A DNA stretch of 64,000 nt from Georgenia muralis (lineage in GTDB: Bacteria > Actinomycetota > Actinomycetes > Actinomycetales > Actinomycetaceae): NCBI RefSeq assembly GCF_003814705.1, contig NZ_RKRA01000001.1, positions 2,790,001 to 2,854,000 of the forward strand, read 5' to 3'. Below the pieces are notes generated by a model, which worked only from the letters and a program-made list of their open reading frames with translations, had not been told where the DNA came from and searched no databases. Made by a program: the position numbers and the translations under genes. This document shows positions 7,218-30,809 of the stretch, in pieces; positions within the stretch are counted from its first letter, which is position 1, and every line of letters starts with the position of its first letter.

Positions 7218-8465
7218 ATGACCGCTCCTTCCAGTATCGACCCTGCCCGGATTCTCCAGGACCACCTTGCCCAGGCGTCCCCGGACCTGCTGCGCCAGCT
7301 GCTCACCACGTTCATCAACGCCCTGCTCTCCGCCGACGCCGACGCCGTGTGTGGTGCAGCGTGGGGGCAGGTCTCGGACGAGCGCACCAACCGGCGCAAC
7401 GGCTACCGCCACCGCGACTTCGACACCCGCGCCGGGACCATCGACGTCGCGATCCCGAAGCTGCGCACCGGGTCCTACTTCCCCGACTGGCTCCTCGAGC
7501 GGCGCCGCCGCGCCGAGGCGGCCCTGACCAGCGTGGTGGCGACCTGCTACCTCCTGGGCGTCTCCACCCGGCGGATGGACAAGCTCGTCCAGACCCTGGG
7601 GATCACCGGGCTGAGCAGGTCCCAGGTCTCACAGATGGCCAAGGACCTCGACGCCCAGGTCGAGGACTTCCGCACCCGGCCGCTGGACGCCGGCCCGTAC
7701 ACGTTCCTCGCCGCGGACGCGCTCACGATGCGGGTCCGCGAGGGTGGCCGGGTGGTCAAGGTCGCCGTCCTGGTCGCCACCGGCGTCAACGCCGACGGCC
7801 ACCGCGAGGTCCTCGGTGTCCAGGTCGCCACGGCCGAGTCCGGGGCGGGGTGGCTGGCGTTCTTCCGTGACCTCGTCGCCCGGGGCCTGACCGGGGTCAA
7901 GCTCGTGACGTCCGACGCCCACGCCGGCCTGGTCGAGGCCATCGGGGCGACCCTGCCCGGGGCGGCGTGGCAGCGGTGCCGCACGCACTACGCGGCGAAC
8001 CTCATGGCCAAGTGCCCCAAGGCGTCCTGGCCGGCCGTGAAGGCCATGCTGCACTCGGTCTACGACCAGGTCGACGCCCCCGCCGTCCAGGCCCAGTTCG
8101 ACAAGCTCCTCGACGCCGTCGAGACCCAGCTGCCCGACGTCCACGCCCACCTCGACGACGCCCGCGGCGACATCCTGGCCTTCACCGGCTTCCCCAAGGC
8201 CCTGTGGCGCCAGATCTGGTCCAACAACCCCAACGAGCGCCTCAACCGCGAGATCCGCCGCCGCACCGACGTCGTCGGCATCTTCCCCGACCGCACCAGC
8301 ATCATCCGCCTCGTCGGGGCCGTGCTCGCCGAGCAGCACGACGAATGGGCCGAAGGCCGCCGCTACTTCGGCCTCGACGCCCTCGCCAAAGCCCGCCTGA
8401 GCCTCATCACCACCACCGAGACCGAACAGGAGGACCCCGCCATCGCCGGCGCCATCAGCGCCTAA
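7218..8465 (+). CDS. IS256-family transposase (DDE)
   Basis: 415 residues, full length for the family. The ATG at 7218 gives [12 protein letters not shown]; the frame stays open upstream but that part lies in the IS leader. Features in order: N-terminal helical region ([20 protein letters not shown]), the [15 protein letters not shown] block, the helix-turn-helix-like [13 protein letters not shown], and catalytic Asp in FLAADALTM. The second Asp is in [11 protein letters not shown], followed by the C-x2-H motif CRTHYAANL, and the catalytic Glu is in [14 protein letters not shown]. All three catalytic acids are present and the frame is intact, so the enzyme may be active. It cuts and pastes its own element through the flanking inverted repeats. 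Confidence 0.96.
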
Positions 8466-10261: not shown

Positions 10262-10687
10262 ATGACGATACCAACCGTGAGTGGCGATGAGCGCGGTGCG
10301 GTGGATGCCGCCACGTTGGCGCCGGCAGCCGCGCTGTTCCATGGCCTGTCCGACCCGGCCCGGCTGGCGATCCTGCAGCACCTGACGGTGGGCGAGCACA
10401 GGGTGCGGGACCTGACCGAGCACCTCGGCCTGGCGCAGTCGACCATCAGCGCACATCTGGCGTGTCTGAGGGACTGCGGCCTGGTGACTTCTCGTCCGGA
10501 GGGACGGGCGTCGATGTTCTCCCTGACCACGGCCCCGGAGCTGCTTGCGGTGCTGGCGGCGGCGGAGCAGCTGTTGGCCTCGACGGGATATGCCGTCGAG
10601 CTGTGCCCCAACTACGGCGTCGGGGCCACCACCACCCCGGGCGCCGAGCACCTGAAGCCTCACGAGCACCTGGAGACCGCCCGATGA
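10262..10687 (+). CDS. cmtR: CmtR-like ArsR/SmtB repressor (Cd/Pb sensor)
   Basis: 141 residues. Winged-helix core: LFHGLSDPARLAILQHLTVG, recognition helix LAQSTISAHLACLRDCGLV, wing RPEGRASMFSLTT. The distinguishing CmtR ligands are present: two cysteines four apart (C68 and C72, HLACLRDCGL) and a C-terminal cysteine in ELCPNYG (C115). These match Cys57, Cys61 and Cys102 of mycobacterial CmtR, which binds Cd and Pb. The C-terminus also carries several His/Glu residues. The gene overlaps the downstream P-type ATPase as ATGA, the same arrangement as cmtR with its cognate pump. It should release its promoter when Cd or Pb binds. Confidence 0.92.
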   Translation: MTIPTVSGDERGAVDAATLAPAAALFHGLSDPARLAILQHLTVGEHRVRDLTEHLGLAQSTISAHLACLRDCGLVTSRPEGRASMFSLTTAPELLAVLAAAEQLLASTGYAVELCPNYGVGATTTPGAEHLKPHEHLETAR

Positions 10688-12675
10688 GCGACGCCTGCTG
10701 CGCCCACGACGAGGACGAGCGCACCGACCACGACGACGAGCACGGTGAGGCCCAGGCCGAGCGGCTCTGGGACGTCGACGAGATCCGTGGGGCCGCGGTG
10801 TCTGGCGTGCTGCTGGCCGCCGGCTTCCTGCTCTCCTGGTCCGGGCAGGAGGGCTGGTCGCTCGGGCTGAACGTCGCCGCCCTGCTGGCGGGCGCGGTCA
10901 CCTTCGTGCCTGGCACGCTCCGGGCGTTGGTCAGGGGCCGGATCGGGGTCGGCACCCTGATGACCATCGCTGCCGTCGGCGCGGTGCTGCTCGGTGAGGT
11001 GCAGGAGGCCGCGATGCTGGCGTTCCTGTACTCCATCAGCGAGGGCCTAGAGGAGTACTCCCTGGCCAAGACCCGCGGCGGCCTGCGCGCTCTGCTCTCC
11101 CTCGTCCCTGAGCAGGCCACCGTGCGTCGCGACGGCATCGAGGTCGCCGTCGCCCCCAAGGACTTGCGCGTCGGCGAGGTCATGCTTGTCAAGCCCGGTG
11201 AGCGCCTCGCCACCGACGGGACCGTTCTTGCCGGGCGCACCGCGCTGGACGTCTCGGCCATCACCGGGGAGTCCATGCCCGTCGAGGCCGGCCCCGGAGC
11301 CGAGGTCTACGCCGGATCCATCAACGGCACCGGCGCCCTCGAGGTCGAGGTCACCACGACCGCGGAGAACAACTCCCTGGCGCGGATCGTCCACATCGTC
11401 GAGGCCGAGCAGTCCCGGAAGGGTGCGACCCAGCGGCTGGCCGACAAGGTCGCCAAGCCCCTGGTGCCCGGCATCATGGTCCTCGCCGCCCTCATCGCCG
11501 TCATCGGCTCGCTCGGGGGCGACCCCGAGTTGTGGATCGAGCGGGCGCTTGTGGTCCTCGTCGCCGCGTCCCCGTGCGCCCTGGCGATCTCCGTCCCGGT
11601 CGCGGTGGTCTCCGCGGTCGGGGCCGGCAGCCGGTTCGGTGTGCTCATCAAGGGTGGGGCCGCCCTGGAGACCCTGGGACGGGTCCGGAACATCGCCCTG
11701 GACAAGACCGGAACCCTGACAGAGAACCGACCGGTGGTCGTGGGGGTCGCCACGGCCGCGGGACGCTCCCGCGAGGAGGTGCTCTCGCTGGCCGCAGGGC
11801 TCGAGGCCCGCAGCGAGCACCCCCTCGCCAGGGCCATCCTCGCCGCGGCCCACGGCGTGCCGGCAGCGGCCGACGTCGAGGCCGTCACCGGTGCCGGACT
11901 GACCGGCACCATCGGCGCCCGCCGCGTTCGACTGGGGCGTCCTGGGTGGATCGACCCGGACGGCCTCGCCGCCGAGGTCACCGGCATGCAGCAGGCCGGC
12001 GCCACCGCGGTCGTCCTGGAGGTCGACGGGCAGGTGCTCGGCGCCATCGCCGTGCGCGACGAGCTCCGTCCCGAGGCCCCCGAGGTGGTCGCGCGACTGC
12101 GGCGCGAGGGCTACACCGTGACCATGCTGACCGGGGACAACGCGGCCACCGCCCAGGCGCTGGCCACAGAGGCCGGAATCACCAACGTGCACGCCGAGCT
12201 GCGTCCCGAGGACAAGTCTCGCCTCGTCGGGACGCTCCGCGCCCGGGGCGTCACGGCGATGGTCGGCGACGGCGTCAACGACGCACCCGCCTTGGCCACC
12301 GCCGACCTCGGCGTGGCGATGGGCGCCATGGGCAGTGACGTGGCGATCGAGACCGCCGACGTCGCCCTGATGGGCGACGACCTGCGGCTGCTGCCCCAGG
12401 CCCTCGCACACGCGCGTCGTTCGCGGCGGATCATGCTTCAGAACGTCGGCCTGTCCCTCGTCCTGATCGCCGCGCTCATCCCGCTCGCTCTCGCCGGCGT
12501 GCTCGGCCTGGCCGCGGTCGTCCTTGTCCACGAGCTCGCCGAGGTGGTCGTCATCGCCAACGGCGTACGTGCCGGCCGGTCCAAGGACCTGCACACAATC
12601 AACTCCTCCACAGCGCCGACCACGGCAGCGCCAGCCCCCGCCCGCAGATTAAGCCCTCCTCGCCTCTCTAACTGA
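10684..12675 (+). CDS. P1B-type heavy-metal-translocating ATPase
   Basis: 663 residues from the ATG overlapping the cmtR-like stop. The short N-terminus (SDACCAHDEDERTDHDDEHG) has a Cys pair and many acidic/His residues but no HMA domain. Core motifs: TGES (194-197, actuator), SPC at 296-298 in the metal-transport helix, DKTGT with the phosphorylated Asp at 340, a HP motif (SEHPLA), and GDGVND at 528-533. The last helices hold VLVHELAEVVVIANG. The SPC in place of CPC is typical of the Co/Fe-type P1B-4 group, while a CmtR partner points to Cd/Pb as in CtpG. I therefore assign soft divalent metal export without choosing one ion. Confidence 0.93.
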   Translation: MSDACCAHDEDERTDHDDEHGEAQAERLWDVDEIRGAAVSGVLLAAGFLLSWSGQEGWSLGLNVAALLAGAVTFVPGTLRALVRGRIGVGTLMTIAAVGAVLLGEVQEAAMLAFLYSISEGLEEYSLAKTRGGLRALLSLVPEQATVRRDGIEVAVAPKDLRVGEVMLVKPGERLATDGTVLAGRTALDVSAITGESMPVEAGPGAEVYAGSINGTGALEVEVTTTAENNSLARIVHIVEAEQSRKGATQRLADKVAKPLVPGIMVLAALIAVIGSLGGDPELWIERALVVLVAASPCALAISVPVAVVSAVGAGSRFGVLIKGGAALETLGRVRNIALDKTGTLTENRPVVVGVATAAGRSREEVLSLAAGLEARSEHPLARAILAAAHGVPAAADVEAVTGAGLTGTIGARRVRLGRPGWIDPDGLAAEVTGMQQAGATAVVLEVDGQVLGAIAVRDELRPEAPEVVARLRREGYTVTMLTGDNAATAQALATEAGITNVHAELRPEDKSRLVGTLRARGVTAMVGDGVNDAPALATADLGVAMGAMGSDVAIETADVALMGDDLRLLPQALAHARRSRRIMLQNVGLSLVLIAALIPLALAGVLGLAAVVLVHELAEVVVIANGVRAGRSKDLHTINSSTAPTTAAPAPARRLSPPRLSN

Positions 12676-12680
12676 AGCGA

Positions 12681-12708
12681 GCCGAGAGACACAAGCCGAG
12701 AGACACAA
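12681..12708 (+). repeat. 14-bp tandem duplication after the ATPase gene
   Basis: GCCGAGAGACACAA occurs twice in direct tandem, directly downstream of the ATPase stop. The remaining bases to 12872 hold no recognised gene. Confidence 0.8.
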
Positions 12709-12872
12709 GATCCCGACCCGCATGACGACTGTGGGCGGGAGTTCTCGTCCACGCCGGGCATGGTGACCGACCGCGCGCGCCAGTATGTCGACCACCGTCA
12801 TCAGCCACTCGGGCCAACGGGACTCCTCCCCTTCGATGCACAGACCCAACAGGGTCATGAGACGATGTACGA

Positions 12873-13232
12873 ATGCGCGAAGACTCGAAGACATGCGGGT
12901 TTGCGCTCGACTCGCCGTACGTGGACCTGGCCGTCGAGGTATTTGCAATGCTGGCCGACGCGACGCGGGTGCGGATCGTCCTCGCCCTGCGCGAGGGGGA
13001 GCTGGCAGTGAGCGACCTGGCCCAAGCCGTGGGGAAGTCACCCACGACCGTGTCTCAGCACTTGGCGAAGCTGCGACTGGCCCGCATGGTCAGCACGCGG
13101 CAAGAGGGGACCCGCGTGTTCTACAAGCTGACCGACGAGCATGTGCGTCAGCTCGTCGTGGACGCGATCTTCCAAGCCGAGCACGCCGTCGACGCCCAAC
13201 CCCGTCACCACCGGAAGGAGCACGACGCGTGA
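12873..13232 (+). CDS. ArsR/SmtB repressor of the CzrA/NmtR type
   Basis: 119 residues. Core VFAMLADATRVRIVLALREG, recognition helix SPTTVSQHLAKLRLARMV, wing RQEGTRVFYKLTD. The last helix carries DEHVRQLVVDAIFQAEHAVD. Its D-x-H and later H match the alpha5 D, H, H, H metal site of CzrA/NmtR, except that the third ligand position is Gln (IFQAEH) rather than His. The C-terminal tail QPRHHRKEH could supply extra histidines, as in KmtR. It overlaps the CDF gene (GTGA), so Zn-, Ni- or Co-induced export is the likely output. No SD precedes the ATG. Confidence 0.9.
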   Translation: MREDSKTCGFALDSPYVDLAVEVFAMLADATRVRIVLALREGELAVSDLAQAVGKSPTTVSQHLAKLRLARMVSTRQEGTRVFYKLTDEHVRQLVVDAIFQAEHAVDAQPRHHRKEHDA

Positions 13233-14314
13233 ACGCACACCCCACGGACTCACACCACCGCCGCGGCCACCCGGTGGAAACCAGCACGCAGGGTCACGTC
13301 GGCGCCGATCAGCATCACCACGATCACGATCACGATCACGACCACGAGCACCCCACCGGGTTCCGTGGCTGGCTGCACGAGGTGTTCGTCCCGCACAGTC
13401 ATGACGCTGCCGACTCCATCGATGATGCCCTCGAGGCCAGCTCTCAGGGCATCCGTGCTGTCAAGATCAGCCTCGTCGTCCTCGGCATCACGGCTGCCGC
13501 CCAGCTCGTCATCGTGGCGATCAGCGGTTCGGTCGCCCTCCTGGCCGACACGATCCACAACTTCTCCGACGCGCTGACGGCTGTCCCGCTCTGGATCGCC
13601 TTCGCACTCGGGAGACGGGCGCCGACCCGGCGCTACACGCACGGCTACGGACGGGCGGAAGACCTGGCCGGCCTGTTCATCGTTGCCATGATCGCGTTGT
13701 CGGCGGTCATCGCGGGGGTGGAGTCCATCCGCCGCCTCGCCGAGCCGCAGCCTCTGGAGAACCTCGGGTGGGTGTTTGCCGCGGGCATCGTCGGGTTCCT
13801 CGGCAACGAGGCGGTCGCGGTCTACCGCATCCGCACCGGTCGGCGCATCGGATCCGCAGCTCTCGTCGCTGATGGGCTCCATGCGCGCACCGACGGCTTC
13901 ACGTCCCTGGCCGTCGTGCTGGGTGTGATCGGAGTGTGGGTCGGAGTTCCCCAGGCTGACCCCATCGTCGGCCTGCTGATCACCGCAGCCATCCTCATTC
14001 TGCTCTGGGGCACCGCGCGGGATGTCGGGCGGCGCATCCTCGACGGTGTCGACCCCACCCTCACCGACCGGGCCGAGGAAGCCCTTCGGGGGGTCGCCGA
14101 CGTCGAGGGTGTCAGCGACCTCAGGCTTCGCTGGTCCGGGCACCGCCTGGCCGTTCAGGCCACCCTCACCACCCACCCAGCCACCCCACTGGTGCAGCTG
14201 GAGGAGATGACGACACGCGCGCGGCACGCGCTCGGTCAGGGGTTGCCCAGCGTCGGAGACGTCCTCCTCGCCACATCCAGCTCAAAGACCGACGAGACGA
14301 CCGAAGCCGTGTGA
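13229..14314 (+). CDS. CDF-family exporter with His-rich N-terminus
   Basis: 361 residues from GTG at 13229, with GGAAGGAG 9 nt upstream and overlap with the ArsR stop. The N-terminus has a run HHHDHDHDHDHEH, encoded by a CACGAT-type hexamer repeat, a probable metal-buffering sequence. Six membrane helices follow. Site residues are LLADTIHNFSDALTAV in TM2 and LVADGLHARTDGFTSLAVV in TM5, both H-x3-D as in Zn transporters. The C-terminal domain reads VEGVSDLRLRWSGHRLAVQATL. It differs clearly from the CDF protein at 2234-3151, so the two are not recent duplicates. It is controlled by the coupled ArsR repressor. Confidence 0.93.
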   Translation: MNAHPTDSHHRRGHPVETSTQGHVGADQHHHDHDHDHDHEHPTGFRGWLHEVFVPHSHDAADSIDDALEASSQGIRAVKISLVVLGITAAAQLVIVAISGSVALLADTIHNFSDALTAVPLWIAFALGRRAPTRRYTHGYGRAEDLAGLFIVAMIALSAVIAGVESIRRLAEPQPLENLGWVFAAGIVGFLGNEAVAVYRIRTGRRIGSAALVADGLHARTDGFTSLAVVLGVIGVWVGVPQADPIVGLLITAAILILLWGTARDVGRRILDGVDPTLTDRAEEALRGVADVEGVSDLRLRWSGHRLAVQATLTTHPATPLVQLEEMTTRARHALGQGLPSVGDVLLATSSSKTDETTEAV

Positions 14315-14391
14315 CGGAGCTCCACGATGGACGCTGGGTTGCGTGGGAGTGTCGATCTACCTTGCCGACCAGCTCACGGAAGGAGTAGCCG

Positions 14392-15132
14392 ATGCCCTCG
14401 TTCTGGTTGGTCCTAGGCCTGGCTGCCCTACCTGCGCTCGGCAACTGTGTCGGCGGCGTCCTGGCTGAGGTGCTTCGAGTCTCGGAACGCACCCTCAGCC
14501 TCGCGCTGCATCTGGCCGCCGGGATCGTCCTGGCCGTCGTGGGGCTGGAACTCATGCCCGAGGCGCTGGCTGCGGAGGTGCCATGGGTGCCCCTGCTTGC
14601 GTTCGTCGTCGGCGGGGTGGCGTTCATCGGCCTGGACCGCGCCGTTGGCGTCGTCCGCGCCCGACTCGGCGGGCGCACCGGCGACAAGGGGTCCAGAGCG
14701 CTGACGATCTTCTCCGGCGTGTCCCTCGACCTGTTCAGCGACGGGGTGATGATCGGCACGGGCACCCTCCTGAACCCCGCCCTCGGGCTGCTGCTGGCGA
14801 TCGGTCAGGTCCCGGCCGATCTGCCCGAAGGGTTCGCCGCCATCGCCACGATGCGTCGAGCAGGCATCCCACGCCGTCGACGCATCCTGGCCGCCGTAGC
14901 GTTCACGATCCCGATCATGCTGGGCGCCACCATCGGGTACTTCGCCCTGCGGGGCGCTCCGGAGATCGTCACCCTCTCGGTCCTGGCTCTGACCGGTGGG
15001 GCACTGACCGCCGTGGTCGTGGAGGAGATGCTTACTGAGGCCCACGAAGGCGACACCTCGCAGCTCGGCCCCATCTTCCTCACCGCCGGGTTCGCGATGT
15101 TCGCCGCGATCTCGGTTTACGTCGGCGCATGA
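14392..15132 (+). CDS. ZIP-family metal transporter
   Basis: 246 residues with about eight hydrophobic helices. An SD GGAAGGAG (14376-14383) precedes the ATG. TM4 reads SLDLFSDGVMIGTG and TM5 reads GQVPADLPEGFAAIATM. These are the binuclear metal-site helices of ZIP proteins, with D-x2-SDG in place of the usual HN-x2-EG and DLPEG in place of HEIPHE, so metal preference may be shifted. The C-terminal VVVEEMLTEAHE also fits. ZIP proteins usually bring metal into the cytosol. It stands 77 bases after the CDF gene without overlap and may be transcribed with it. Confidence 0.9.
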   Translation: MPSFWLVLGLAALPALGNCVGGVLAEVLRVSERTLSLALHLAAGIVLAVVGLELMPEALAAEVPWVPLLAFVVGGVAFIGLDRAVGVVRARLGGRTGDKGSRALTIFSGVSLDLFSDGVMIGTGTLLNPALGLLLAIGQVPADLPEGFAAIATMRRAGIPRRRRILAAVAFTIPIMLGATIGYFALRGAPEIVTLSVLALTGGALTAVVVEEMLTEAHEGDTSQLGPIFLTAGFAMFAAISVYVGA

Positions 15133-21379: not shown

Positions 21380-21435
21380 TTACGGTGTAACGTCGGTTCT
21401 GGGATGGAGCTCCCGGGAACCGCCCTGGTGGGCTG

Positions 21436-23058
21436 ATGGCTCCTCACGTCGTGGTGGAGGATGCCGTGAGAAGCCCAGAGTCGGTGCAGCGTCCAGTTCC
21501 CGGAGATGGCCCACTCGGTCCAGCGGACACGAGGCCGTTCCGTTCGATTCTGTTTCCGGGCGGGTCGCGAGCGATCCGGCCACCAAAGGATGCTGACTTC
21601 ATCCACGACCTGAATCTCGATCAGGTCATTGATTCGGTCGCCGCCGGGCGGCAGGAGTACCGGATCAGGCCGTTCTTCACTTTGCCGTTGCATGACGTGG
21701 CGACGGTGACGTACCGGCAGGAGATCTTCCGCGACCTGTCCGGGCGTGCGGTGGCCGGTGTGGTCGAGCTGTTCGAGGGGGAGATGCGCCGTGTGCGGTC
21801 TTGCCTGGAGGCGGCTCGCAGCGTGCACCACGAGCTGCAGCGGCAGTGGTGGTTCCTCGAGGCCGGGGCGGTGTACTGCGCTGCTGTTCCTGCATTGTGG
21901 CGCGACCTGGGCGGGGCCACCGTCCGTTCTCGTGGGCTGCGGTTGTTGCGGGCGTACCTGAGCGACTACGTCGCATCATCGGCCTTCACGGACCTGCGTG
22001 AGGACACGGATCGGGTCCGTGAGGGCCTCTCCCGAGTTCGGTACACGGTCCACATCAAGGGGGCCCACGTCACGGTCGACCATTGCCACGGCGAGGCCGA
22101 CTACGGGGCGGAGGTGCTGGCCACCTTCGAGAGGTTCCGGCAGGCAGAGCGAGCGCCACGGGAGGCGAACCCGTCCCGGGCCGGGGAGATGAGTCACGTC
22201 GAGGCCCGCGTCCTCGACCTGGTCGCCCAGCTCAACCCGGGGGCTTTCGGAGCACTGGCCCGCTACGGCACGGAGCATCGGGACTTCGTGGACGTCGTCG
22301 TGGGCGATTTCGATCGTGAGGTCCAGTTCTACCTCGCCTACCTCGACCATGTGGCTCCTCTCGAGGAGGCCGGGTTGGCGCTGTGCTACCCGCTGGTGGG
22401 CAGATCGAAGGCCGTGGAGGGACGGCAGGTCTTCGACCTGGCCCTGGCGGGCCGGCTCGTCGCCGAGGGGGGAACCGTGGTCTGCAACGACTTCCAGCTG
22501 GTAGGGCCGGAGCGAGTCGTGGTGGTCACGGGCCCGAACCAGGGCGGGAAGACGACGTTCGCCCGAACGGTCGGCCAGCTCTTTCACCTGGCCGCCCTGG
22601 GTTGCCCGGTCCCGGGCACGTGTGTCCGGCTGGCCCTGCCGGACCGCGTCTTGACGCACTTCGCGCGGAAGGAGAACCTCAGCGACCTCAGGGGGCAGCT
22701 CGAGGACGACCTGATCCGGGTCCATCAGATGCTGGAGCGGGCCAGTAGTGAGAGCGTGTTGATTCTCAACGAGATCTTCACCTCCACCACCCTGGAGGAC
22801 GCCCGTCTGCTCGGGGAGCGGGTCCTGAGGCGGATCATCGCGCTCGACTGCCTGGCCGTGTACGTCACCTTCGTCGACGAGCTCTCCGATCTCAGTCCCT
22901 CGACCGTGAGCATGGTCAGCGCGGTCCGTCCGGAGGACCCGACCGAGCGCACCTACAGGCTGGAGCGGCGGCGCGCGGACGGGCTTGCGTACGCCGCTGC
23001 CTTGGCGCAGAAGTACGGCCTCGGCTACGAGGCGTTGAGGGCACGGGTGGCGAGATGA
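21436..23058 (+). CDS. MutS-like ATPase A (no mismatch-recognition domain)
   Basis: 540 residues. The N-terminal about 340 are helical (FIHDLNLDQVIDSV, FFTLPLHDVATVTYRQEIFR) and resemble the MutS core/lever region without domains I-II. The C-terminal ATPase has a P-loop GPNQGGKTTF (366-375; MutS has GPNMGGKS). The Walker B reads VLILNEIFTSTTLEDA with N445-E446 instead of D-E. The switch region reads YVTFVDEL where MutS has a T-H, so the switch His is missing. The C-terminus lacks helix-turn-helix or Smr domains. It overlaps the next MutS-like gene by ATGA, implying stoichiometric partners. Substrate unknown; DNA-structure binding is inferred from the family. The start is chosen at the ATG after GGTGGG; a later start is possible since homology begins near residue 35. 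Confidence 0.85.
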   Translation: MAPHVVVEDAVRSPESVQRPVPGDGPLGPADTRPFRSILFPGGSRAIRPPKDADFIHDLNLDQVIDSVAAGRQEYRIRPFFTLPLHDVATVTYRQEIFRDLSGRAVAGVVELFEGEMRRVRSCLEAARSVHHELQRQWWFLEAGAVYCAAVPALWRDLGGATVRSRGLRLLRAYLSDYVASSAFTDLREDTDRVREGLSRVRYTVHIKGAHVTVDHCHGEADYGAEVLATFERFRQAERAPREANPSRAGEMSHVEARVLDLVAQLNPGAFGALARYGTEHRDFVDVVVGDFDREVQFYLAYLDHVAPLEEAGLALCYPLVGRSKAVEGRQVFDLALAGRLVAEGGTVVCNDFQLVGPERVVVVTGPNQGGKTTFARTVGQLFHLAALGCPVPGTCVRLALPDRVLTHFARKENLSDLRGQLEDDLIRVHQMLERASSESVLILNEIFTSTTLEDARLLGERVLRRIIALDCLAVYVTFVDELSDLSPSTVSMVSAVRPEDPTERTYRLERRRADGLAYAAALAQKYGLGYEALRARVAR

Positions 23059-24611
23059 AGACGCATCTGATGCACCCCGACCGTGGCTTCGATCCGCAGC
23101 AGCCGCTCCCCTGGAACGCGGGGGACCTCATCGACGACCTCGAGCTCGACACCCTGCTGGCGGTCATGGCCGACGGCGATCACGTCCTCTACGAGATCGG
23201 CCGCGTCGCCCTGCTGACACCCCTGCAGGACCCGGCCGAGATCAGGTATCGCCAGGCAGCGCTCGAGGACTGCCTCCGCCACCGGGAGATCGTCACGGAG
23301 ATCTACGCCGGCGCGGTGGCCGCCATCGCCCGGGAGAAGCGGATCTTCGGGTCGATCCTGCGCAGGCCGACCTCGGTGGTGAGCAGGTCGGTGGAGGTCC
23401 TGGAGATGTTCGTCGAGCACCTCACCCGGCTCAGGGTGATCGCGGACGAGCGGAGCTGGACCTTCCGTTCAGCCGCATTCACGACGTTCTTCGAGATGAT
23501 CGCCACCGAGCTCGACGACCAGTTCTTCGCGACGGCGGGTGCGCACCTGCGCCGTCTGAGGTTCCGCGACGGCGTCCTGATGAGCGCGGAGCTCGGCACG
23601 GGGAACACGGGTACCCGCTATACGCTGCGCCGCCCGCATCATGAGAGAGGGACCTGGCTCGAGCGCCTGACGGCGCCGCCACGGCAGGGCCTGACGTTCG
23701 TCATCCCTGACCGCGACGACGCCGGCTTCAGCGCGCTCTCCGAGCTGCGCGACCAGGGCCTGGACCACATCGCCCACGCCCTGTCCCGGTCCACCGATCA
23801 CATCCTGGCCTTCTTCAAGGCCCTGCGCACCGAGCTCGGCTTCTACATCGGGTGCCTCAACCTCCACGACCAGCTGGGAGCCGAGGCGACCGCCTGGTGC
23901 TTCCCCGAGCCGGTACAGGGCAGCGTCGCACTGAGCTGCCGCGATCTCCGCGACGCCGCGCTGGTGCTGACCACTGAGGAACCCGTCGTCGGCAACGACG
24001 TCGACGCCGACGGCAGGTCGCTGGTGATGATCACTGGCGCGAACCAAGGAGGGAAATCCACGTTCCTGCGTGCCGTGGGGCTGGCGCAGCTGATGATGCA
24101 GTCCGGGATGTTCGTCACGGCACAGCAGTACCGGGCCAACGTCTGTGAAGCGATCGCCACGCACTTCAGCCGCGAGGAAGATCCGACCATGACCAGCGGA
24201 AGGCTCGACGAAGAGCTCCGCCGGATGAGCGACATCGCGGACCACATCCGGCCCGGATCGCTGCTGTTGTGCAACGAGTCGTTCGCCTCGACCAACGAAC
24301 GGGAAGGGTCACAGATCTCACGAGACATCCTCCGGGCGCTGCAGGAGGAGGGCATCAAGGTCTTCTTCGTCACACACCTGTTCGACCTCGCCCACGGCAT
24401 CGCGCGGCAGGGACGGGGCGACACGTTGTGCCTCCGGGCCGAACGAGAGGCGGACGGGCACCGGACCTTCAAGCTGCCCGTCGGTGAGCCGCTCCCCACC
24501 AGCTATGGCACCGACCTCTACGCGCGCGTCTTCGGCACGGCAGCGGGGACCGAGACCCCACCGACGGGAGAGACCCGCTCCGGTGCTAGCTCGCGGCGTG
24601 ACACGCGGTGA
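23055..24611 (+). CDS. MutS-like ATPase B, partner of the preceding gene
   Basis: 518 residues. Helical N-terminal part (DDLELDTLLAVMADGDHVLY, IRYRQAALEDCLRHREIV) and a C-terminal ATPase with P-loop GANQGGKSTF (from residue 328). Walker B reads LLLCNESFASTNEREGSQIS with N407-E408, and the switch FVTHLFDLA keeps its His. A conserved signature-like stretch, EEDPTMTSGRLDEELRRMSD, precedes Walker B. It has neither mismatch-recognition nor connector domains and no nuclease domain. Sequence identity with protein A appears low apart from the ATPase, so this is an old pair rather than a fresh duplication. Probably forms a heterodimer in which the two ATP sites differ. The C-terminal tail is Ser/Thr/Arg-rich. 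Confidence 0.85.
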   Translation: MKTHLMHPDRGFDPQQPLPWNAGDLIDDLELDTLLAVMADGDHVLYEIGRVALLTPLQDPAEIRYRQAALEDCLRHREIVTEIYAGAVAAIAREKRIFGSILRRPTSVVSRSVEVLEMFVEHLTRLRVIADERSWTFRSAAFTTFFEMIATELDDQFFATAGAHLRRLRFRDGVLMSAELGTGNTGTRYTLRRPHHERGTWLERLTAPPRQGLTFVIPDRDDAGFSALSELRDQGLDHIAHALSRSTDHILAFFKALRTELGFYIGCLNLHDQLGAEATAWCFPEPVQGSVALSCRDLRDAALVLTTEEPVVGNDVDADGRSLVMITGANQGGKSTFLRAVGLAQLMMQSGMFVTAQQYRANVCEAIATHFSREEDPTMTSGRLDEELRRMSDIADHIRPGSLLLCNESFASTNEREGSQISRDILRALQEEGIKVFFVTHLFDLAHGIARQGRGDTLCLRAEREADGHRTFKLPVGEPLPTSYGTDLYARVFGTAAGTETPPTGETRSGASSRRDTR

Positions 24612-25430: not shown

Positions 25431-26243
25431 TCAGGTCGCGGTCCCCGCGCCCTCGTCGGACACGTGGACGGCGAGGGGGAACGCCCAACCGGCGAACCAG
25501 CCCAGCGCTGCGACCCAGGAAGCGTCCTCCTCGGTGGTGGCGGGCCGGCCGCGGTCGGTCATGGACTCGATGAGGGGGCCGAGAAGATCCGCCGTCTCGA
25601 GCAGACGTGCGCCGACCCGGTCGGCCGTGTGACGGGGAAGGTCCCTGGCGGCGAGGAGGTGCGGCCGGCACGTCCGGCCGGCGTCGTCCGCGGTGAGCTG
25701 GCGATCCCGCGGGACGCCTGCCTCTGCGGCGCAGACCGGGCAGACCCATGGGCGCCAGACCCGCTCGGTCTGGCGGAGCCATGCGGTGGTGAACGTGAGC
25801 CGGTTGGCCTCCTCGGTCAGGGCTGCGGTGTCCGACCCTGCGTAGCCGACCGGCGCTCCTGACGGTGCGGCGGCGCTCAGCTCCTCGCAGATGCGGCAGG
25901 CCGCTCCAGCAGTCAACACCGAGGCCAGGTTGGCGGCGAGGATCCGGCGCCTGGTCAGCTCCGTGGCCGCGTGCTCGAGGAGGTCCTTGTAGAGGATGGC
26001 CACGTCGAAGGGCTGGTGGCCCCCGCGTGCCCCCGGACCGTACGTCCACAGCTCGATCTCGACGACGGCGTAGGCCCAGCTGTGCCTCGGGCACAGGCCG
26101 TACGAGGCTCGCAGCTGCCGGCGCATCTCGGGATCCATGATGTCGCCGTGGACGAAGGACCACAGCTGGCGCACCTCCTCGGTGGTCAGCCGGAGGTCCT
26201 TCGTTCCCGCTGGCGCCGGCGGTGGGGGGTCGGGCGTTGCCAT
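25431..26243 (-). CDS. Cysteine-motif protein of unknown function
   Basis: 270 residues; GAGGAA lies 8 nt before the ATG at 26243. No family recognised with confidence. Four cysteine motifs are spaced through it: GLCPRHSWAY, GAACRICEE, WVCPVCAAE and RTCRPHLLA. Two are C-x2-C zinc-ribbon-like and two are C-x2-H, so two zinc sites are plausible. The N-terminal residues TEEVRQLWSFVHGDIMDPEM look like a short helical domain. No membrane segment or signal peptide. It is convergent with the PAP2 relic. It lies downstream of the MFS and enolase genes on their strand, separated by 159 bases, so it may be part of that riboswitch-controlled unit. Confidence 0.7.
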   Translation of the reverse strand: MATPDPPPPAPAGTKDLRLTTEEVRQLWSFVHGDIMDPEMRRQLRASYGLCPRHSWAYAVVEIELWTYGPGARGGHQPFDVAILYKDLLEHAATELTRRRILAANLASVLTAGAACRICEELSAAAPSGAPVGYAGSDTAALTEEANRLTFTTAWLRQTERVWRPWVCPVCAAEAGVPRDRQLTADDAGRTCRPHLLAARDLPRHTADRVGARLLETADLLGPLIESMTDRGRPATTEEDASWVAALGWFAGWAFPLAVHVSDEGAGTAT

Positions 26244-26402
26244 GGTCGGGTTCCTCTCGTCACCGGGAGGAACCATCAGCTGCCTGTGTGGCGGCGGTTG
26301 CGACGTCGTGTCCGGGCGGGATCCATCACCCAGATCCGACTTTACGCCCCGCCCCGTCGACCTCGCTCGGCGACGCCTGCCGGTGCCCTGATGGGGAGGG
26401 AG

Positions 26403-27641
26403 TCAGTCGCGCGCCCGTGCCGGCGCGGTGACGACCTTCGCGGCGATCAGCGAGCCGACCATCCACGTGGCCGCGTAGGCGAACGCGACGGTGGGCGAAA
26501 CCGCAGCCCAGAGCAGGCCGGCGACCAGGGAGGCGCCCAGGTCGCCGAGGGACTGGACCAGGCCGAGGACGCCGTAGCCGTTGCCGCGGAGGTGGTCGGG
26601 GAGGATGAGCGCGACGAGTGTCGTCTCGGCGGTCTCGGCCAGGCCGATGCCGATGCCGGCAAGGACGAACGCGGCCAGGACGAGCGGCCAGGCTTGCTGG
26701 TCGAGCGCGAAGAGGGCGTAGGCGCCGACGTAGCAGGCAGCACCGGCGGCGAAGACGCCACGGGGACCGCGCCGATCGGTGAGGTGCCCGCCACCGATGG
26801 AGGCGATCGTGGCGGCGCCGTTGTGGGCGGCGTACAGGACGATGGCCAGGCTGGTCGCGGCCACCAGGCTGCGTCCCTGGGCGTGCAGGAGGTCGGTGGC
26901 CCGCAGGATCAGCAGGGTGGTGGCAACGTTGCCCAGCTCGAACATCGCGACGGGAAGGAAGGCCCGGGCCAGGCCGGCCCGCCGGAGCTCCCCCAGGTTG
27001 AAGGAGAGCGTGCGCCTGCCCTGCTCGGCTCCGAGTACCCGGCGGGCCTCGCGGGCAGCCAGCGTGATGGCGACGGCGGCGAGCACGCCGGGGATGAAGG
27101 CGAGGAGGATGGTGTGGCGAACCCCGACGACGCCGACGAGGGCAGCGGCGAGAAGGGGGCCGAGGACGGCGCCGGCGTTGTCGCCGGCACGCTCGAGACC
27201 CGCGGCGCGCCCGTAGGCCTCGCGCGGGACCAGAGAGACGAGCAGGGTGTCGCGGGCGGGGGAGCGGATCCCGCGGGACATCCAGCCCAGGGCCCGAAGG
27301 ATCGCGACCTGCCACACGGCGGTGGCCACGCCGATCAACGAGGTCGCGACGGCGGTGAGCACGTACCCGCCACGGGCCAGGTTGGCCCGGCGCCCAGGGT
27401 CGCTCGACAGCGGACCACCGGCCAGCTTGCTCAGTCCGATGAGGGCGTCCGAGACCCCCTCGATGGCCCCGAGCGCCCCCGGCCCGGCGCCGAGAGTGGT
27501 CGTGAGCAAGGTAGGCAGGACACTGGTGGCCATCTCGTGGCCGGTGTCGGAGAAGAACGAGGCGGCTCCGATGCTCCCCACACCGGGTGTCAACCACCGC
27601 GGCGACGGGGCCGGATCGGTGCCGTGGCGGTCCGAGGCCAT
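26403..27641 (-). CDS. Major facilitator superfamily transporter
   Basis: 412 residues with about 12 hydrophobic helices. MFS signatures are present: GPLSSDPGRRANLARGGYVL in loop 2-3 position, and the motif-A-like GGHLTDRRGPRGVFAAG before TM8. The first helix has ASFFSDTGHEMATSVLP. The protein resembles the FsvF/YceJ-like MFS group with a F-S-D-x-G-x-E-M start, often called drug transporters; the substrate is unknown. The ATG at 27641 lies 3 bases after the enolase stop, so it is co-transcribed with enolase behind a fluoride riboswitch. That makes a role in fluoride or inhibitor tolerance worth testing. Confidence 0.85.
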   Translation of the reverse strand: MASDRHGTDPAPSPRWLTPGVGSIGAASFFSDTGHEMATSVLPTLLTTTLGAGPGALGAIEGVSDALIGLSKLAGGPLSSDPGRRANLARGGYVLTAVATSLIGVATAVWQVAILRALGWMSRGIRSPARDTLLVSLVPREAYGRAAGLERAGDNAGAVLGPLLAAALVGVVGVRHTILLAFIPGVLAAVAITLAAREARRVLGAEQGRRTLSFNLGELRRAGLARAFLPVAMFELGNVATTLLILRATDLLHAQGRSLVAATSLAIVLYAAHNGAATIASIGGGHLTDRRGPRGVFAAGAACYVGAYALFALDQQAWPLVLAAFVLAGIGIGLAETAETTLVALILPDHLRGNGYGVLGLVQSLGDLGASLVAGLLWAAVSPTVAFAYAATWMVGSLIAAKVVTAPARARD

Positions 27642-27644
27642 GGG

Positions 27645-28907
27645 TCAGGCGAGCCCGTACGGCAGGTCGGTGGTGGCGGCGATCTGCAGGAGCCGGTTGT
27701 ACTTTGCCACGCGCTCACCTCGGGCGGGGGCACCGGACTTCAGCTGACCGCACCCGGTACCGACGGTGAGGTCGGCGATGAAGCTGTCCTCGGTCTCACC
27801 GGAGCGGTGGGAGACCATCTGGGTGTAGCCGGCGTCGCGGCACAGGCGCATCGCCTCGAGGGTCTCGGACACCGAGCCGATCTGGTTGAGCTTGATGAGG
27901 GCGGAGCTGCCGAGCTTGCGCCCGATGGCCTCGGTGATGATCGCGGGGTTGGTGACGAAGATGTCGTCGCCCATGATCTGGGCCCGGCCGGCCAGGCGCT
28001 CGGTCAGGGCGACCCAGCCGTCCCAGTCACCCTCCGCGAGACCGTCCTCGATGGACCACACCGGGAAGTCGGCGACCATCTGGGCGTACCGCTCGATCAT
28101 CTCGGTGCTGGTCAGGCTCTCCCCGGCGACCCGGTAGGAGCCGTCGTCGTAGAACTCGCTCGCCGCCGGGTCCAGGGCGATCGCCACCCCGGCACGTCCG
28201 GCGGTGTACCCGGCACCCTCGATCGCCTCGACCAGCAGGGCCAGGACGTCCTCGGGCCGGGTGATGTCCGGGGCGAAACCGCCCTCATCCCCCAGGCCGG
28301 TGGCGAACCCGCGGTCCTGGAGCAACGAGCGGAGCCTGCCGTACACGGTCGCCCCGGCGCGGACCGCCTCGGGCAGCGACGGGGCGCCGATCGGGGCGAT
28401 CATGAACTCCTGGAAATCGAGGGAGTTCGGGGCGTGCGCGCCGCCGTTGAGCACGTTGAAGTGCGGGACCGGCAGCCGCGGGGAAGTACCGCCGAGGCGC
28501 AGGTACGTGTACAGCTCGTTGGTGCCGGCCAGGGCGCGGGCCAGGGCCATGGAGACGCCGATGATCGCGTTCGCCCCGAGGCGAGCCTTGTTCCCGGTGC
28601 CGTCGGCGTCGTTCATCGCCCGGTCCACCTCCGCCAGGGCCGACCAGGTCCGGGACCGCAGCAGCTCCGCGAGCTCGCCGTTGACGTTGCTGACCGCACG
28701 GGTGACACCCTTGCCGCCGTACCGGTCGGCGTCGCCGTCGCGCAGCTCGACCGCCTCCCGGCTGCCCGTCGAGGCACCCGAGGGCACACCCGCCGAAGCC
28801 CTCTGCCCGGTGGACAGCTCCACGGACACGCGCAGCGTGGGATTCCCCCGGGAGTCCAGGATCTCCAGCGCGTCCAGGTCAGTGATACCGAAGCTCTCTG
28901 CGCCCAT
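27645..28907 (-). CDS. eno: Enolase, in a fluoride-resistance context
   Basis: 420 residues, normal length. Converts 2-phosphoglycerate to phosphoenolpyruvate in glycolysis. Key blocks are intact: EILDSRGNPTLRVSV, VPSGASTGSREAVELRD, FNVLNGGAHAPNSLDFQEFM, GDEGGFAPD (catalytic Glu), MGDDIFVTNP (Mg ligand), LIKLNQIGSVSET (catalytic Lys) and MVSHRSGETEDSFIADL. The ATG at 28907 has GGAGAGGGGCG upstream; the frame stays open further upstream but runs into the leader RNA. It is preceded by a fluoride riboswitch-like leader at 29001-29051. Enolase is a classical target of fluoride-phosphate inhibition, so an inducible extra copy makes sense. Actinobacteria normally carry another enolase gene elsewhere near ftsB, so this is probably a second copy. 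Confidence 0.95.
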   Translation of the reverse strand: MGAESFGITDLDALEILDSRGNPTLRVSVELSTGQRASAGVPSGASTGSREAVELRDGDADRYGGKGVTRAVSNVNGELAELLRSRTWSALAEVDRAMNDADGTGNKARLGANAIIGVSMALARALAGTNELYTYLRLGGTSPRLPVPHFNVLNGGAHAPNSLDFQEFMIAPIGAPSLPEAVRAGATVYGRLRSLLQDRGFATGLGDEGGFAPDITRPEDVLALLVEAIEGAGYTAGRAGVAIALDPAASEFYDDGSYRVAGESLTSTEMIERYAQMVADFPVWSIEDGLAEGDWDGWVALTERLAGRAQIMGDDIFVTNPAIITEAIGRKLGSSALIKLNQIGSVSETLEAMRLCRDAGYTQMVSHRSGETEDSFIADLTVGTGCGQLKSGAPARGERVAKYNRLLQIAATTDLPYGLA

Positions 28908-29000
28908 CGTCGATCGCCCCTCTCCTCCACGCCGCCCGGCGCGGTCACCGGCGAGGAACCACGATGAAGGGTCACCGCAGCCCCCGCCCTCTCGGACAAG

Positions 29001-29051
29001 ACCAGGGACCGTTGGCGGCATCTGCCGCAGTTGAAGGCGAGCCCCACCGCC
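29001..29051 (-). ncRNA. Fluoride riboswitch (crcB motif) upstream of enolase
   Basis: Read on the minus strand from 29051: GGCG-GTGGGGCT-CGCC (P1 with the pseudoknot loop), then CAACTGCGGC, loop AGAT, GCCGC, then CAACGGTCCCTGG. This order (hairpin with a G-rich loop, AACnGC, second stem, and a C-rich 3' strand pairing with the first loop) fits the fluoride-responsive fold. The same blocks recur at 29153-29206 on the other strand, which supports a conserved RNA. It lies 94-144 bases before the enolase ATG. Confidence 0.78.
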
Positions 29052-29152
29052 GTGACAACCACGACGCTACTCCCACCCACGTGGCGCGGGGAGGACCAAA
29101 AGACGGACACGGCTGGCGCGCACCACAGGGGCTACTACGCTGCTGAGAATCC
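29052..29152. promoter_or_regulatory. Divergent promoters between the two fluoride riboswitches
   Basis: Minus strand: TAGCGT at 29069-29064. Plus strand: TACGCT at 29135-29140. Each TANNNT hexamer ends 12 nt before the first base of its own riboswitch stem, so the two promoters are symmetrical. No convincing -35 boxes are seen. Confidence 0.5.
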
Positions 29153-29206
29153 GGCGGTGGGGCTCGCCGGCCCCAACCGCGGTTCCTCCGCCAACGGTCC
29201 CTGCAG
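29153..29206 (+). ncRNA. Fluoride riboswitch (crcB motif) upstream of the Fluc genes
   Basis: Starts GGCG-GTGGGGCT-CGCC, identical over 16 bases to the enolase-side leader. AACCGCGG, loop TTCC and CCGC follow, and then CAACGGTCCCTG, again shared. The second stem differs in sequence but keeps pairing (GCGG with CCGC against GCGGC with GCCGC), a compensatory change supporting RNA structure. The CrcB ATG is 21 bases downstream, with the SD AGGAGG just outside the aptamer. Confidence 0.8.
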
Positions 29207-29226
29207 GCACACCAGGAGGAACACGC

Positions 29227-29736
29227 ATGCCCGAGCGCAGCAACCAGGTCGCCACGGACCCGGATCTCATTCCCGAGACCGCCAGGCGCGAGACCCCCGG
29301 CCGCCGGGCCCGGCCCAGGATCGTGCTCGACGTTCCCCTTGTCATCGCGGCCGGCGGGGCTGCTGGCGCCGTTGGCCGCTACGGGATCGCCCTCTGGCAA
29401 CCTCACGGTCCCGGTTCCTTCCCGTGGGCAACCTTCTGGACCAACGTGACCGGGTGCCTGGTGATCGGGGTGCTCATGGTGCTCCTGACCGAACTCGGCG
29501 GACGCCCGCACCGACTCATCCGCCCCTTCGTCGGGGTCGGCATCCTGGGCGGCTTCACCACCTTCTCTACCTACGCCGTCGACGTTCACGAGCTCCTAGG
29601 GGCGGGAGCGCCGAGCACCGCGCTGGTGTACATGTTCGCCACCGTCGCCGCTGCCCTCGTCGCGGTGGAGATCGGCATGGCCATCACCCGCTGGGCCACC
29701 CGCGCCCGGCCCGACAGGGAAGGACAGGAACCATGA
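29227..29736 (+). CDS. crcB: CrcB/Fluc fluoride channel subunit 1
   Basis: 169 residues, longer than the usual 120-130 because of a charged N-terminal extension of about 38 residues. Four membrane helices. Fluc signatures: [30 protein letters not shown] with the conserved Asn, and [18 protein letters not shown] (the Phe box and TM3 break). Fluc dimers export fluoride from the cytosol. SD AGGAGG 7 nt upstream; overlaps DUF190 by ATGA. With the second CrcB gene at 30080 it probably forms a heterodimer. Confidence 0.95.
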
Positions 29737-30083
29737 AAGAAGGAAGCAGACTGCTGCGGCTGACGGTCCTGGTCGGGGAGTCCGACCAGTGGCACCACCG
29801 CCCCGTCTACGCCGAGATCGTCCACCGCGCACATGACGCGGGGCTGGCCGGGGCGTCGGTCTTCCGTGGTCTTGAGGGCTTCGGCCGCTTCCACAAGATC
29901 CATACCAGCCGGATCCTGAGCCTCAGCGAGGACCTCCCGCTGAGCATCGTCATCATCGACGAGGAAGCGAAGATCCGCGCTTTCCTGCCCCGGCTCGACG
30001 AGGTGGTCACCGAGGGGGTCGCCGTCATCGACGAAGTCGAGGTGGTCCGTCACTTCGGCGACACCGCCGCAAAGCCGGCATGA
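29733..30083 (+). CDS. DUF190 protein, CrcB-associated
   Basis: 116 residues, a soluble PII-like fold family. Core: [61 protein letters not shown] and [22 protein letters not shown]190 genes are regularly next to crcB, and their trimeric PII-like shape suggests a regulatory or assembly role for the channel; that role is not proven. It overlaps both flanking crcB genes by ATGA, so all three are translated together at similar levels. Confidence 0.93.
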
Positions 30084-30454
30084 CGCTCCTCCTGGTCGCC
30101 GTCGGCGCCACGGTCGGAGCGCCGCTTCGCTACTACACCGACCGGGCCATCCAGTCCCGGCACGATTCCGTCTTCCCGTGGGGCACCCTCACCGTCAACG
30201 TCATCGGTTCCCTCATCTTGGGTGTCCTGGCGGGTGCTGCTTCAGCCGGAGGGGTGCCGCAGACCGTCCTCACCCTCGTCGGTGTGGGGTTCTGCGGGGC
30301 CCTGACCACGTACAGCACCTTCAGCTACGAGACCATGCGGCTGACCGAGAGCGGTTCCCGGCTCTACGCGCTGCTCAACATCCTGCTCAGCCTCACCGCC
30401 GGCCTCGGCGCCGCGTGGCTTGGCCTCACCATCGCCCTTGCACTCCGCGGGTAA
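30080..30454 (+). CDS. crcB: CrcB/Fluc fluoride channel subunit 2
   Basis: 124 residues, standard length, four helices. Signatures: [35 protein letters not shown] with the conserved Asn, and [17 protein letters not shown] (Phe box). It differs from the first CrcB by lacking the N-terminal extension and by sequence. Paired crcB genes often encode heterodimeric fluoride channels. The start overlaps the DUF190 stop (ATGA). It is the last gene of the riboswitch-controlled operon. Confidence 0.95.
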
Positions 30455-30778: not shown

Positions 30779-30809
30779 CGGCCCGGCACCCCACGTGGGT
30801 GCCGGGCCG
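30779..30809 (+). terminator. Perfect 13-bp hairpin, possible terminator
   Basis: CGGCCCGGCACCC pairs with 30797-30809 around the 5-nt loop CACGT. It is about 325 bases after the crcB operon and 130 bases before the permease, so it may end read-through transcription. No T tract. Confidence 0.45.

Follow-up and report, generated by a model that had tools for sequence, protein, structure and literature searches.

The divergent leaders of the fluoride channel (Fluc/CrcB) and enolase operons in a 64-kb stretch of the Georgenia muralis genome (hereafter the window; contig NZ_RKRA01000001.1, positions 2,790,001 to 2,854,000) are very probably fluoride-responsive ON riboswitches that belong to a variant actinobacterial subclass of the crcB (fluoride) aptamer. 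The aptamer anatomy, the covariation of positions 6 and 38, the gene context and a predicted masking in the Fluc leader support this from the sequence. In the proposed mechanism, P1, P3 and a six-pair pseudoknot would fold around a Mg2+-fluoride site, and the reversed Watson-Crick pair beside that site would be G6-C38 rather than A6-U38, with A39 and C41 in place of G39 and U41. When fluoride is absent, GTTCCTCC of P3 in the Fluc leader would pair with GGAGGAAC and hide the ribosome-binding site; when it is present, P3 and the pseudoknot would close and the site would be freed. A single signal would raise export (Fluc-DUF190-Fluc) and supply extra enolase and an MFS carrier, and a MutS-like pair and an orphan protein would be under two canonical-type switches of the same island. 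We infer fluoride as the ligand, the ON direction, switching by the enolase leader, and the roles of the MFS, MutS-like and orphan proteins.

The aptamer of the Fluc operon lies at 29153..29202 on the plus strand and that of the enolase-MFS operon at 29004..29051 on the minus strand. The block GGCGGTGGGGCTCGCC occurs at 29153-29168 (+) and at 29051-29036 (-), with CCGCCAACGGTCCCTG downstream of it on both strands, and the helix between the blocks is GCGG/CCGC in the plus leader and GCGGC/GCCGC in the minus leader, as an earlier note on this DNA had described. That note also took the helix difference as a mark of conserved RNA structure; the pairing holds, but two leaders with identical blocks do not by themselves give covariation, for which the evidence comes from relatives. 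A structural detector finds 4/4 P1 pairs, P3 and at least 5/6 pseudoknot pairs in both leaders, and both retain A40 and U48. R1, a model of the variant built from 50 sequences that include both of these, scores them at 68 (+) and 65.9 (-) bits. The 5' ends of the aptamers are separated by a divergent promoter region of 101 bp (29052..29152), close to the 100 bp given earlier, in which the hexamer position is conserved in relatives. The TANNNT hexamer is TACGCT (29136-29141) for the plus leader, 11 nt before the aptamer, and TAGCGT (29069-29064) for the minus leader, 12 nt before it, so that the 12-nt gap claimed for both is right for the minus strand only. Such a hexamer lies 8-14 nt upstream in 45 of 124 sites, with 4-10 sites at each gap of that range and a background mean of 0.24 sites per offset 40-113 nt upstream of the 124 sites. 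Given the TANNNT positions, transcripts would begin at or just 5' of P1.

The genes on the two sides are those the earlier note had named. On the plus strand are Fluc subunit 1 (29227..29736; Pfam CRCB 2.9e-26), a DUF190 protein (29733..30083; Pfam DUF190 1.4e-35 on a slightly longer frame) and Fluc subunit 2 (30080..30454; Pfam CRCB 1.6e-28). On the minus strand are an enolase of a second type (27645..28907; Pfam Enolase_N and Enolase_C, the latter 2.5e-105; NCBIfam eno 3e-159) and, after it, an MFS transporter (26403..27641; Pfam MFS_1 1.2e-39).

In T. petrophila numbering, based on what we take to be the letters of that sequence, both divergent leaders read G6, C38, A39, A40, C41 and U48. 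The conserved core letters of RF01734, A6, U38, G39 and U41, occur in neither leader; the detector reads them at the other two window sites (21400-21444 and 26268..26330). One paper gives A6-U38 and A40-U48 as canonical pairs and names the long-range pair 6-38 (PMC11586693). In the known structure, positions 6 and 38 make up the reversed Watson-Crick pair, and the variant presumably keeps this geometry.

Covariation of this pair was read with the detector, which demands 4/4 P1 pairs, U7-G8, AACYG, two P3 closing pairs, A40, U48 and at least 5/6 pseudoknot pairs, and is blind to the letters at 6, 38, 39 and 41. It finds 152 sites (125 unique) in the DNA scanned and 0 sites on reversed or complement-only control sequence. 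The pair is G-C in 98 of the unique sites and A-U in 24 (122/125), with the mixed pairs G6-U38 (2) and A6-C38 (1) making up the others. Without the loci fetched by a pattern that fixes G6, the counts are 54 G-C, 18 A-U, 1 G-U and 1 A-C (n=74). The Fisher p values are 2.5e-22 for 125 sites and 4.9e-15 for 74, with relatedness ignored, and some sampling bias persists in the counts because models of both types supplied the loci. Intermediate letters also occur: A6-U38 is found with C41 (3) and A39 (2), and G6-C38 with U41 (2) and G39 (5). P1 and the pseudoknot also have several pair types among the detector sites, but that variety is selected for, since the detector demands pairing there; pair 6-38 alone is unforced. 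The alignment built with the pattern has no variation in P1, at pair 6-38 or at 5/6 pseudoknot pairs, which is partly forced by the pattern, and two P3 pairs in it change on both sides (15 cells, against a shuffled mean of 2.8). The detector did not retain L024 (+), L026, L037, L030 and L053 (L and G numbers denote loci and genomes), and it missed 16 of 41 R1 matches in loci fetched by place, most of which by eye are G6 with C38; three missed R1 sites (L132, L152, L155) carry A at position 7. The A6-U38 site L034-3665 is doubtful.

The Levitt pair 15-48 of tRNA, which also occurs as A-U, resembles pair 6-38 only in how it works and is not homologous to it. The likeness is that of a reversed Watson-Crick pair existing as G-C, and PMC3902895 describes such G-C pairs as weak alone and stabilised by additional contacts or by a metal bound to the guanine. 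With a Mg2+ cluster in this same core, the G6-C38 swap appears chemically plausible.

When 28850-29300 is searched alone, RF01734 matches 29144-29210 (+) with 26.0 bits (E=3.5e-5) and 28996-29060 (-) with 18.3 bits (E=0.012), and a scan of 18-36 kb adds 21400-21444 (+) with 31.2 bits and 26260-26339 (-) with 26.8 bits. Four sub-cut-off fluoride switch sites thus lie within 8 kb, and in the 4.14-Mb genome the three RF01734 matches at E<=0.001 all fall within these four. A covariance-model check on both strands, proposed earlier, yields a match on each strand below the gathering threshold and none at it. The low score of the divergent pair is due to G6 and to C38, A39 and C41, which replace A6 and U38, G39 and U41. 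The paired elements, the fluoride-gene context and the two canonical-type sites in the same island support the earlier reading of back-to-back fluoride riboswitches, which had overlooked those two further sites. Compared with the known fluoride riboswitch (crcB motif, RF01734; T. petrophila structure 4ENC), the variant keeps P1, P3, the six-pair pseudoknot, AAC(Y)G, U7-G8, A40 and U48, and RF01734 switches likewise stand ahead of genes for Fluc, enolase, MutS-like proteins, USP, pyrophosphatase and formate hydrogenlyase. It differs by G6-C38 for A6-U38, A for G39, C for U41 and a score below gathering; since it lacks these two RF01734 features, score and core letters, it is classed as a variant that would work in the manner of the fluoride riboswitch.

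For gene context, proteins from these loci were used in tblastn searches, and the first gene recognised with a start no more than 700 nt away was counted. The 98 G6-C38 sites precede Fluc (65), enolase (10), NarK-like (5), PPE (3) and MFS (2) genes, and Sat, USP and GTPase genes once each. The 24 A6-U38 sites precede MutS-like genes (5), USP genes (4, each then followed by Fluc-Fluc), Fluc (3), a small Cys/His-rich protein (3), formate-hydrogenlyase-like genes (2), PPE, pyrophosphatase, GTPase and DUF190 genes (1 each) and a 270-aa open reading frame (1, in the window itself), with no recognised gene at 2. Fluc comes first in 65/98 G6-C38 and 3/24 A6-U38 sites (Fisher p 1.7e-6), and a MutS-like gene in 0/98 and 5/24 (p 2e-4), relatedness being ignored in both tests. 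Canonical and variant sites occur together in the window, L022 (4681-/4741+), L045 (218+/1851+), L061 (1947+/1819-), L063 (7138-/7265+), L138 and G068 contig 38 (395-456-/558-613+), and because they adjoin in the same loci the two types appear to serve one regulon. Fluoride is very likely still the ligand of the variant, because the variant is found ahead of Fluc, enolase and MFS genes and often has canonical switches as neighbors.

Mycobacterial variants lie before PPE genes, or before a NarK-like MFS gene followed by CysQ (and CysC) in L028 and L042; L042 also has a variant before Sat, with pyrophosphatase downstream. G291, which is in the family (f22) and genus (g61) that include Mycobacterium and Mycolicibacter, has canonical sites of 47.8 and 48.0 bits before Fluc-DUF190-Fluc and PPE-PPE, and Mycolicibacter L032 has a variant before enolase. 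These contexts support fluoride as the signal in mycobacteria too. A sulfate- or nitrate-related ligand, suggested by the mycobacterial NarK, Sat, CysC and CysQ genes, was lowered on the same two grounds, PPE-PPE under an above-cut-off canonical switch beside Fluc-DUF190-Fluc and the L032 enolase under a variant. Across L024, L028 and L042 (Mycobacterium, Mycolicibacter), the variant stands before PPE-PPE and NarK-like MFS with CysQ, CysC, Sat and pyrophosphatase; it is possible that fluoride stress is linked there to sulfate activation, which depends on pyrophosphatase.

Other gene neighbors of the switches are also of note. In L150:1-2289 (-), an intermediate switch (A6-U38, C41) precedes an operon of pyrophosphatase, a histidine-phosphatase (phosphoglycerate-mutase-like) and enolase. 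Dynamin-like GTPases lie directly behind fluoride switches in L022:2955-4616 (-), of canonical-intermediate type, and in L110, of variant type. Canonical sites in L061, L063 and L150 precede a small Cys/His-rich protein, presumably of the DUF2180 family. The PPE, NarK-like, sulfate activation, dynamin-like GTPase and phosphoglycerate-mutase-like genes are new candidates for regulation by fluoride.

According to the folds, the Shine-Dalgarno sequence of the Fluc leader can be masked by P3. GTTCCTCC in P3 (29182..29189, +) is an 8-bp complement of GGAGGAAC, the Shine-Dalgarno stretch of Fluc 1 (29215..29222, +), a length reached by 28/5000 P3 shuffles and 84/5000 spacer shuffles. Folding was applied to 91 leaders with a plausible start; one row of this set, that of the 270-aa frame, is worthless because a wrong start was used for it. 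On average, the Shine-Dalgarno sequence is unpaired with a probability of 0.25 in the free leader and 0.47 once the aptamer is imposed, against 0.35 and 0.47 with shuffled linkers (paired test of the differences, p=3.9e-6), and this probability rises by more than 0.2 in 47/91 leaders. The free value is 0.24 in the 70 G6-C38 leaders (shuffled 0.36) and 0.25 in the 18 A6-U38 leaders (shuffled 0.29). From the free to the aptamer state, accessibility goes from 0.17 to 0.77 in the window Fluc leader, 0.17 to 0.82 in the MutS leader, 0.00 to 0.52 in Georgenia L064 and 0.21 to 0.41 in L005. The partner strands appear to change together, since GTTCCTCC/GGAGGAAC of the window corresponds to GGTCCTCC/GGAGGACC of L064. 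When six enolase leaders are aligned with one USP leader, they share no platform beyond the aptamer.

A number of findings weigh against the fluoride-switch reading. The whole window has zero Rfam matches at gathering scores, both divergent leaders fall short of the RF01734 gathering score of 34 bits, and variant sites in a set of 12 loci give 0 matches at that score. U41A abolishes the fluoride response of the canonical B. cereus switch, according to PMC11077080; the variant has C at position 41, and U to C is presumably a milder change. Among the G6-C38 sites, 7/98 have no recognised gene and 3 are cut, and the mycobacterial sites precede NarK-like, PPE and Sat genes, which are not known fluoride genes. 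Masking is not borne out by folding in the window enolase leader, where the Shine-Dalgarno sequence is hidden in both modelled states (0.01 and 0.05). Taken alone, the gathering-score Rfam scan would have led to rejection; E-value scans and a dedicated model took its place.

The best surviving alternative is that the G6-C38 subclass has changed its ligand and senses another small anion or metal-anion complex, to which the genes answer. The four coordinated changes in the most conserved core, the loss of response with U41A and the NarK-like MFS, CysQ, CysC and Sat genes behind mycobacterial sites would fit this. It is nevertheless improbable, as 65/98 sites lie before the Fluc channel and 10/98 before enolase, canonical switches adjoin the variant in at least 7 loci, and in G291 PPE genes also follow a canonical switch (about 48 bits) that neighbors Fluc-DUF190-Fluc. 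Still less probable is a protein-binding DNA or RNA element of the divergent promoter in place of an aptamer. Near-identical blocks do flank one promoter, and sequence variation within the subclass is very low; the blocks, however, lie downstream of the -10 hexamers and always in gene direction, the joining helix varies yet keeps its pairing, pair 6-38 covaries, and the element also occurs singly. The least probable alternative is that the leaders are decayed, functionless riboswitches kept by common descent, as scores under the Rfam cut-off might suggest, since CAAC stands at 38-41 in 49/50 of alignment A1 across many genera (letters partly forced by the pattern), the variant letters recur unforced in model-found sites, and Shine-Dalgarno masking exceeds that of shuffles.

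The fluoride riboswitch variant is widespread. The pattern that fixes G6, with Y, R and Y at 38, 39 and 41, was run on genome contigs and gives 52 sites in 49 stretches, with CAAC (48), CGAC (2), CGAT (1) or TGAC (1) at 38-41. Actinobacteria account for 47 of the 49 stretches; the other two, L041 and L058, are short contigs whose metagenome bins belong to other phyla, where they may be misplaced. Five sites were excluded from alignment A1: L030 and L053 (in coding sequence, by judgement), L048 (tail TGAC), and L055 and L065 (duplicates). In 394 Actinomycetes genomes, R1 finds 77 sites in 68 genomes at E<=0.001, and RF01734 finds 49 genomes at E<=0.01, 11 of them above cut-off. Six of the 68 R1 genomes are among those 11 (G062, G068, G080, G167, G183, G216) and 62 are not. 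Some R1 matches are A6 and not G6-C38 (G062 contig 181, G216 contigs 6 and 12), and G340, G437, G284 and G114 are doubtful because their matches (L160, L162, L164, L165) look decayed or due to chance. With Fluc present in 362 of the 394 genomes, fluoride control in this class is probably undercounted, and the variant is apparently a large, overlooked form of the fluoride switch and the dominant form in the sampled Actinomycetes. R1 also matches 17 genomes in a 246-genome draw of the phylum, 12 of them outside the class at 28-38 bits and by score only, and 4 of 59 near relatives. It finds none in the 8 congeners searched, of which G002 has a canonical site above the RF01734 cut-off. A search of viral contigs gives 0 matches, and one of plasmids a single partial match, unannotated.

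Fluoride riboswitches and their usual genes are already known. As far as the literature search reaches, the G6-C38/A39/C41 subclass, its share in Actinomycetes and the downstream PPE, NarK-like and sulfate-activation genes are new; no paper found has a title or abstract opening that describes the variant. Extensive riboswitch regulation is reported for Streptomyces cattleya (PMC11139923), and this may be an earlier sight of the variant.

The earlier note had looked for a second enolase without such a leader. One exists: the genome carries three enolases, and L004, which has no such leader in its 1.5-kb flanks, is the housekeeping enolase. The third, L005, was unforeseen; it is 91% identical to the window copy and has its own variant leader. 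Among the matches listed from the 394 genomes, eight enolases have at least 61% identity to the window enolase (G000 twice, G216, G167, G062, G129, G068, G080), and the next have at most 57%. Six of the eight (window, L005, G216, G167, G068, G080) have an R1 or RF01734 site upstream on the same contig and strand within about 3 kb. The G062 enolase is preceded by what reads like a DUF190 gene, and the G129 enolase has no switch site upstream in the flank checked. The window-type enolase keeps the motifs that we take to be catalytic, and a D-P after one Mg2+ ligand is peculiar to it. Its sequence differences are only suggestive of a fluoride-tolerant enolase, and the EDG and DFQEFM residues were dropped as proof of tolerance, as ordinary PDB enolases share both. 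An extra enolase in fluoride-riboswitch operons, with more enzyme as the answer to inhibition, is described in PMC11139923; the window enolase is like these in being an extra copy under a fluoride switch and differs in being a separate type with the D-P.

More speculatively, actinobacteria may use a second natural form of the fluoride aptamer, in which the reversed Watson-Crick pair is G-C and the Mg2+-fluoride site has C41. If its set-point (affinity, Mg2+ dependence or speed) is different, a genome with both aptamer types might bring in export and enolase supply at another stage than MutS-like and other functions, and the mycobacterial regulon might extend to PPE, a NarK-like carrier and sulfate activation; this wider scheme is tentative and rather doubtful as a whole. 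The natural swap of the pair beside the ion site, with its intermediates, makes it testable whether pair 6-38 is required for its geometry or its letters, and poses the question of how C41 can work where U41A fails.

The canonical-type aptamers (A6-U38) of the window precede genes of other kinds. The site at 26268..26330 (-; 26.8 bits) has a 3' end that can pair with the Shine-Dalgarno stretch when folded, and it serves the 270-aa orphan protein (25431..26243, -), which has no Pfam or NCBIfam match. The site at 21400..21444 (+; 31.2 bits) serves the MutS-like operon. MutS domain V protein 1 (21466..23058, +; GTG start) has a Pfam MutS_V match of 5.5e-15 on a longer frame, an alternative ATG at 21436 falls inside the aptamer, and the NCBIfam MutS models are below their cut-offs on this protein. 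MutS domain V protein 2 (23055..24611, +) matches MutS_V with 2.5e-18.

The island is flanked by a metal-resistance cluster (window 10262-15132) that encodes an ArsR-type regulator, an E1-E2 ATPase, a second ArsR-type regulator, a cation efflux protein and a ZIP transporter, and a Mutator-family transposase lies upstream (7218-8465; Pfam 4.8e-139). The G+C content of the island is 70%, and that of the window 72%. The transposase, the G+C content and the absence of variant switches from the 8 congeners hint at horizontal gain. A tRNA search of the window finds none, and weak matches to other Rfam families in the leader region were attributed to chance or a terminator-like hairpin, as was a sub-cut-off Pxr match at 30779, which is a palindrome. 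This near-perfect palindrome of 31 nt (30779-30809) lies between Fluc 2 and a xanthine/uracil permease and probably acts as a terminator, setting the permease apart from the fluoride operon.

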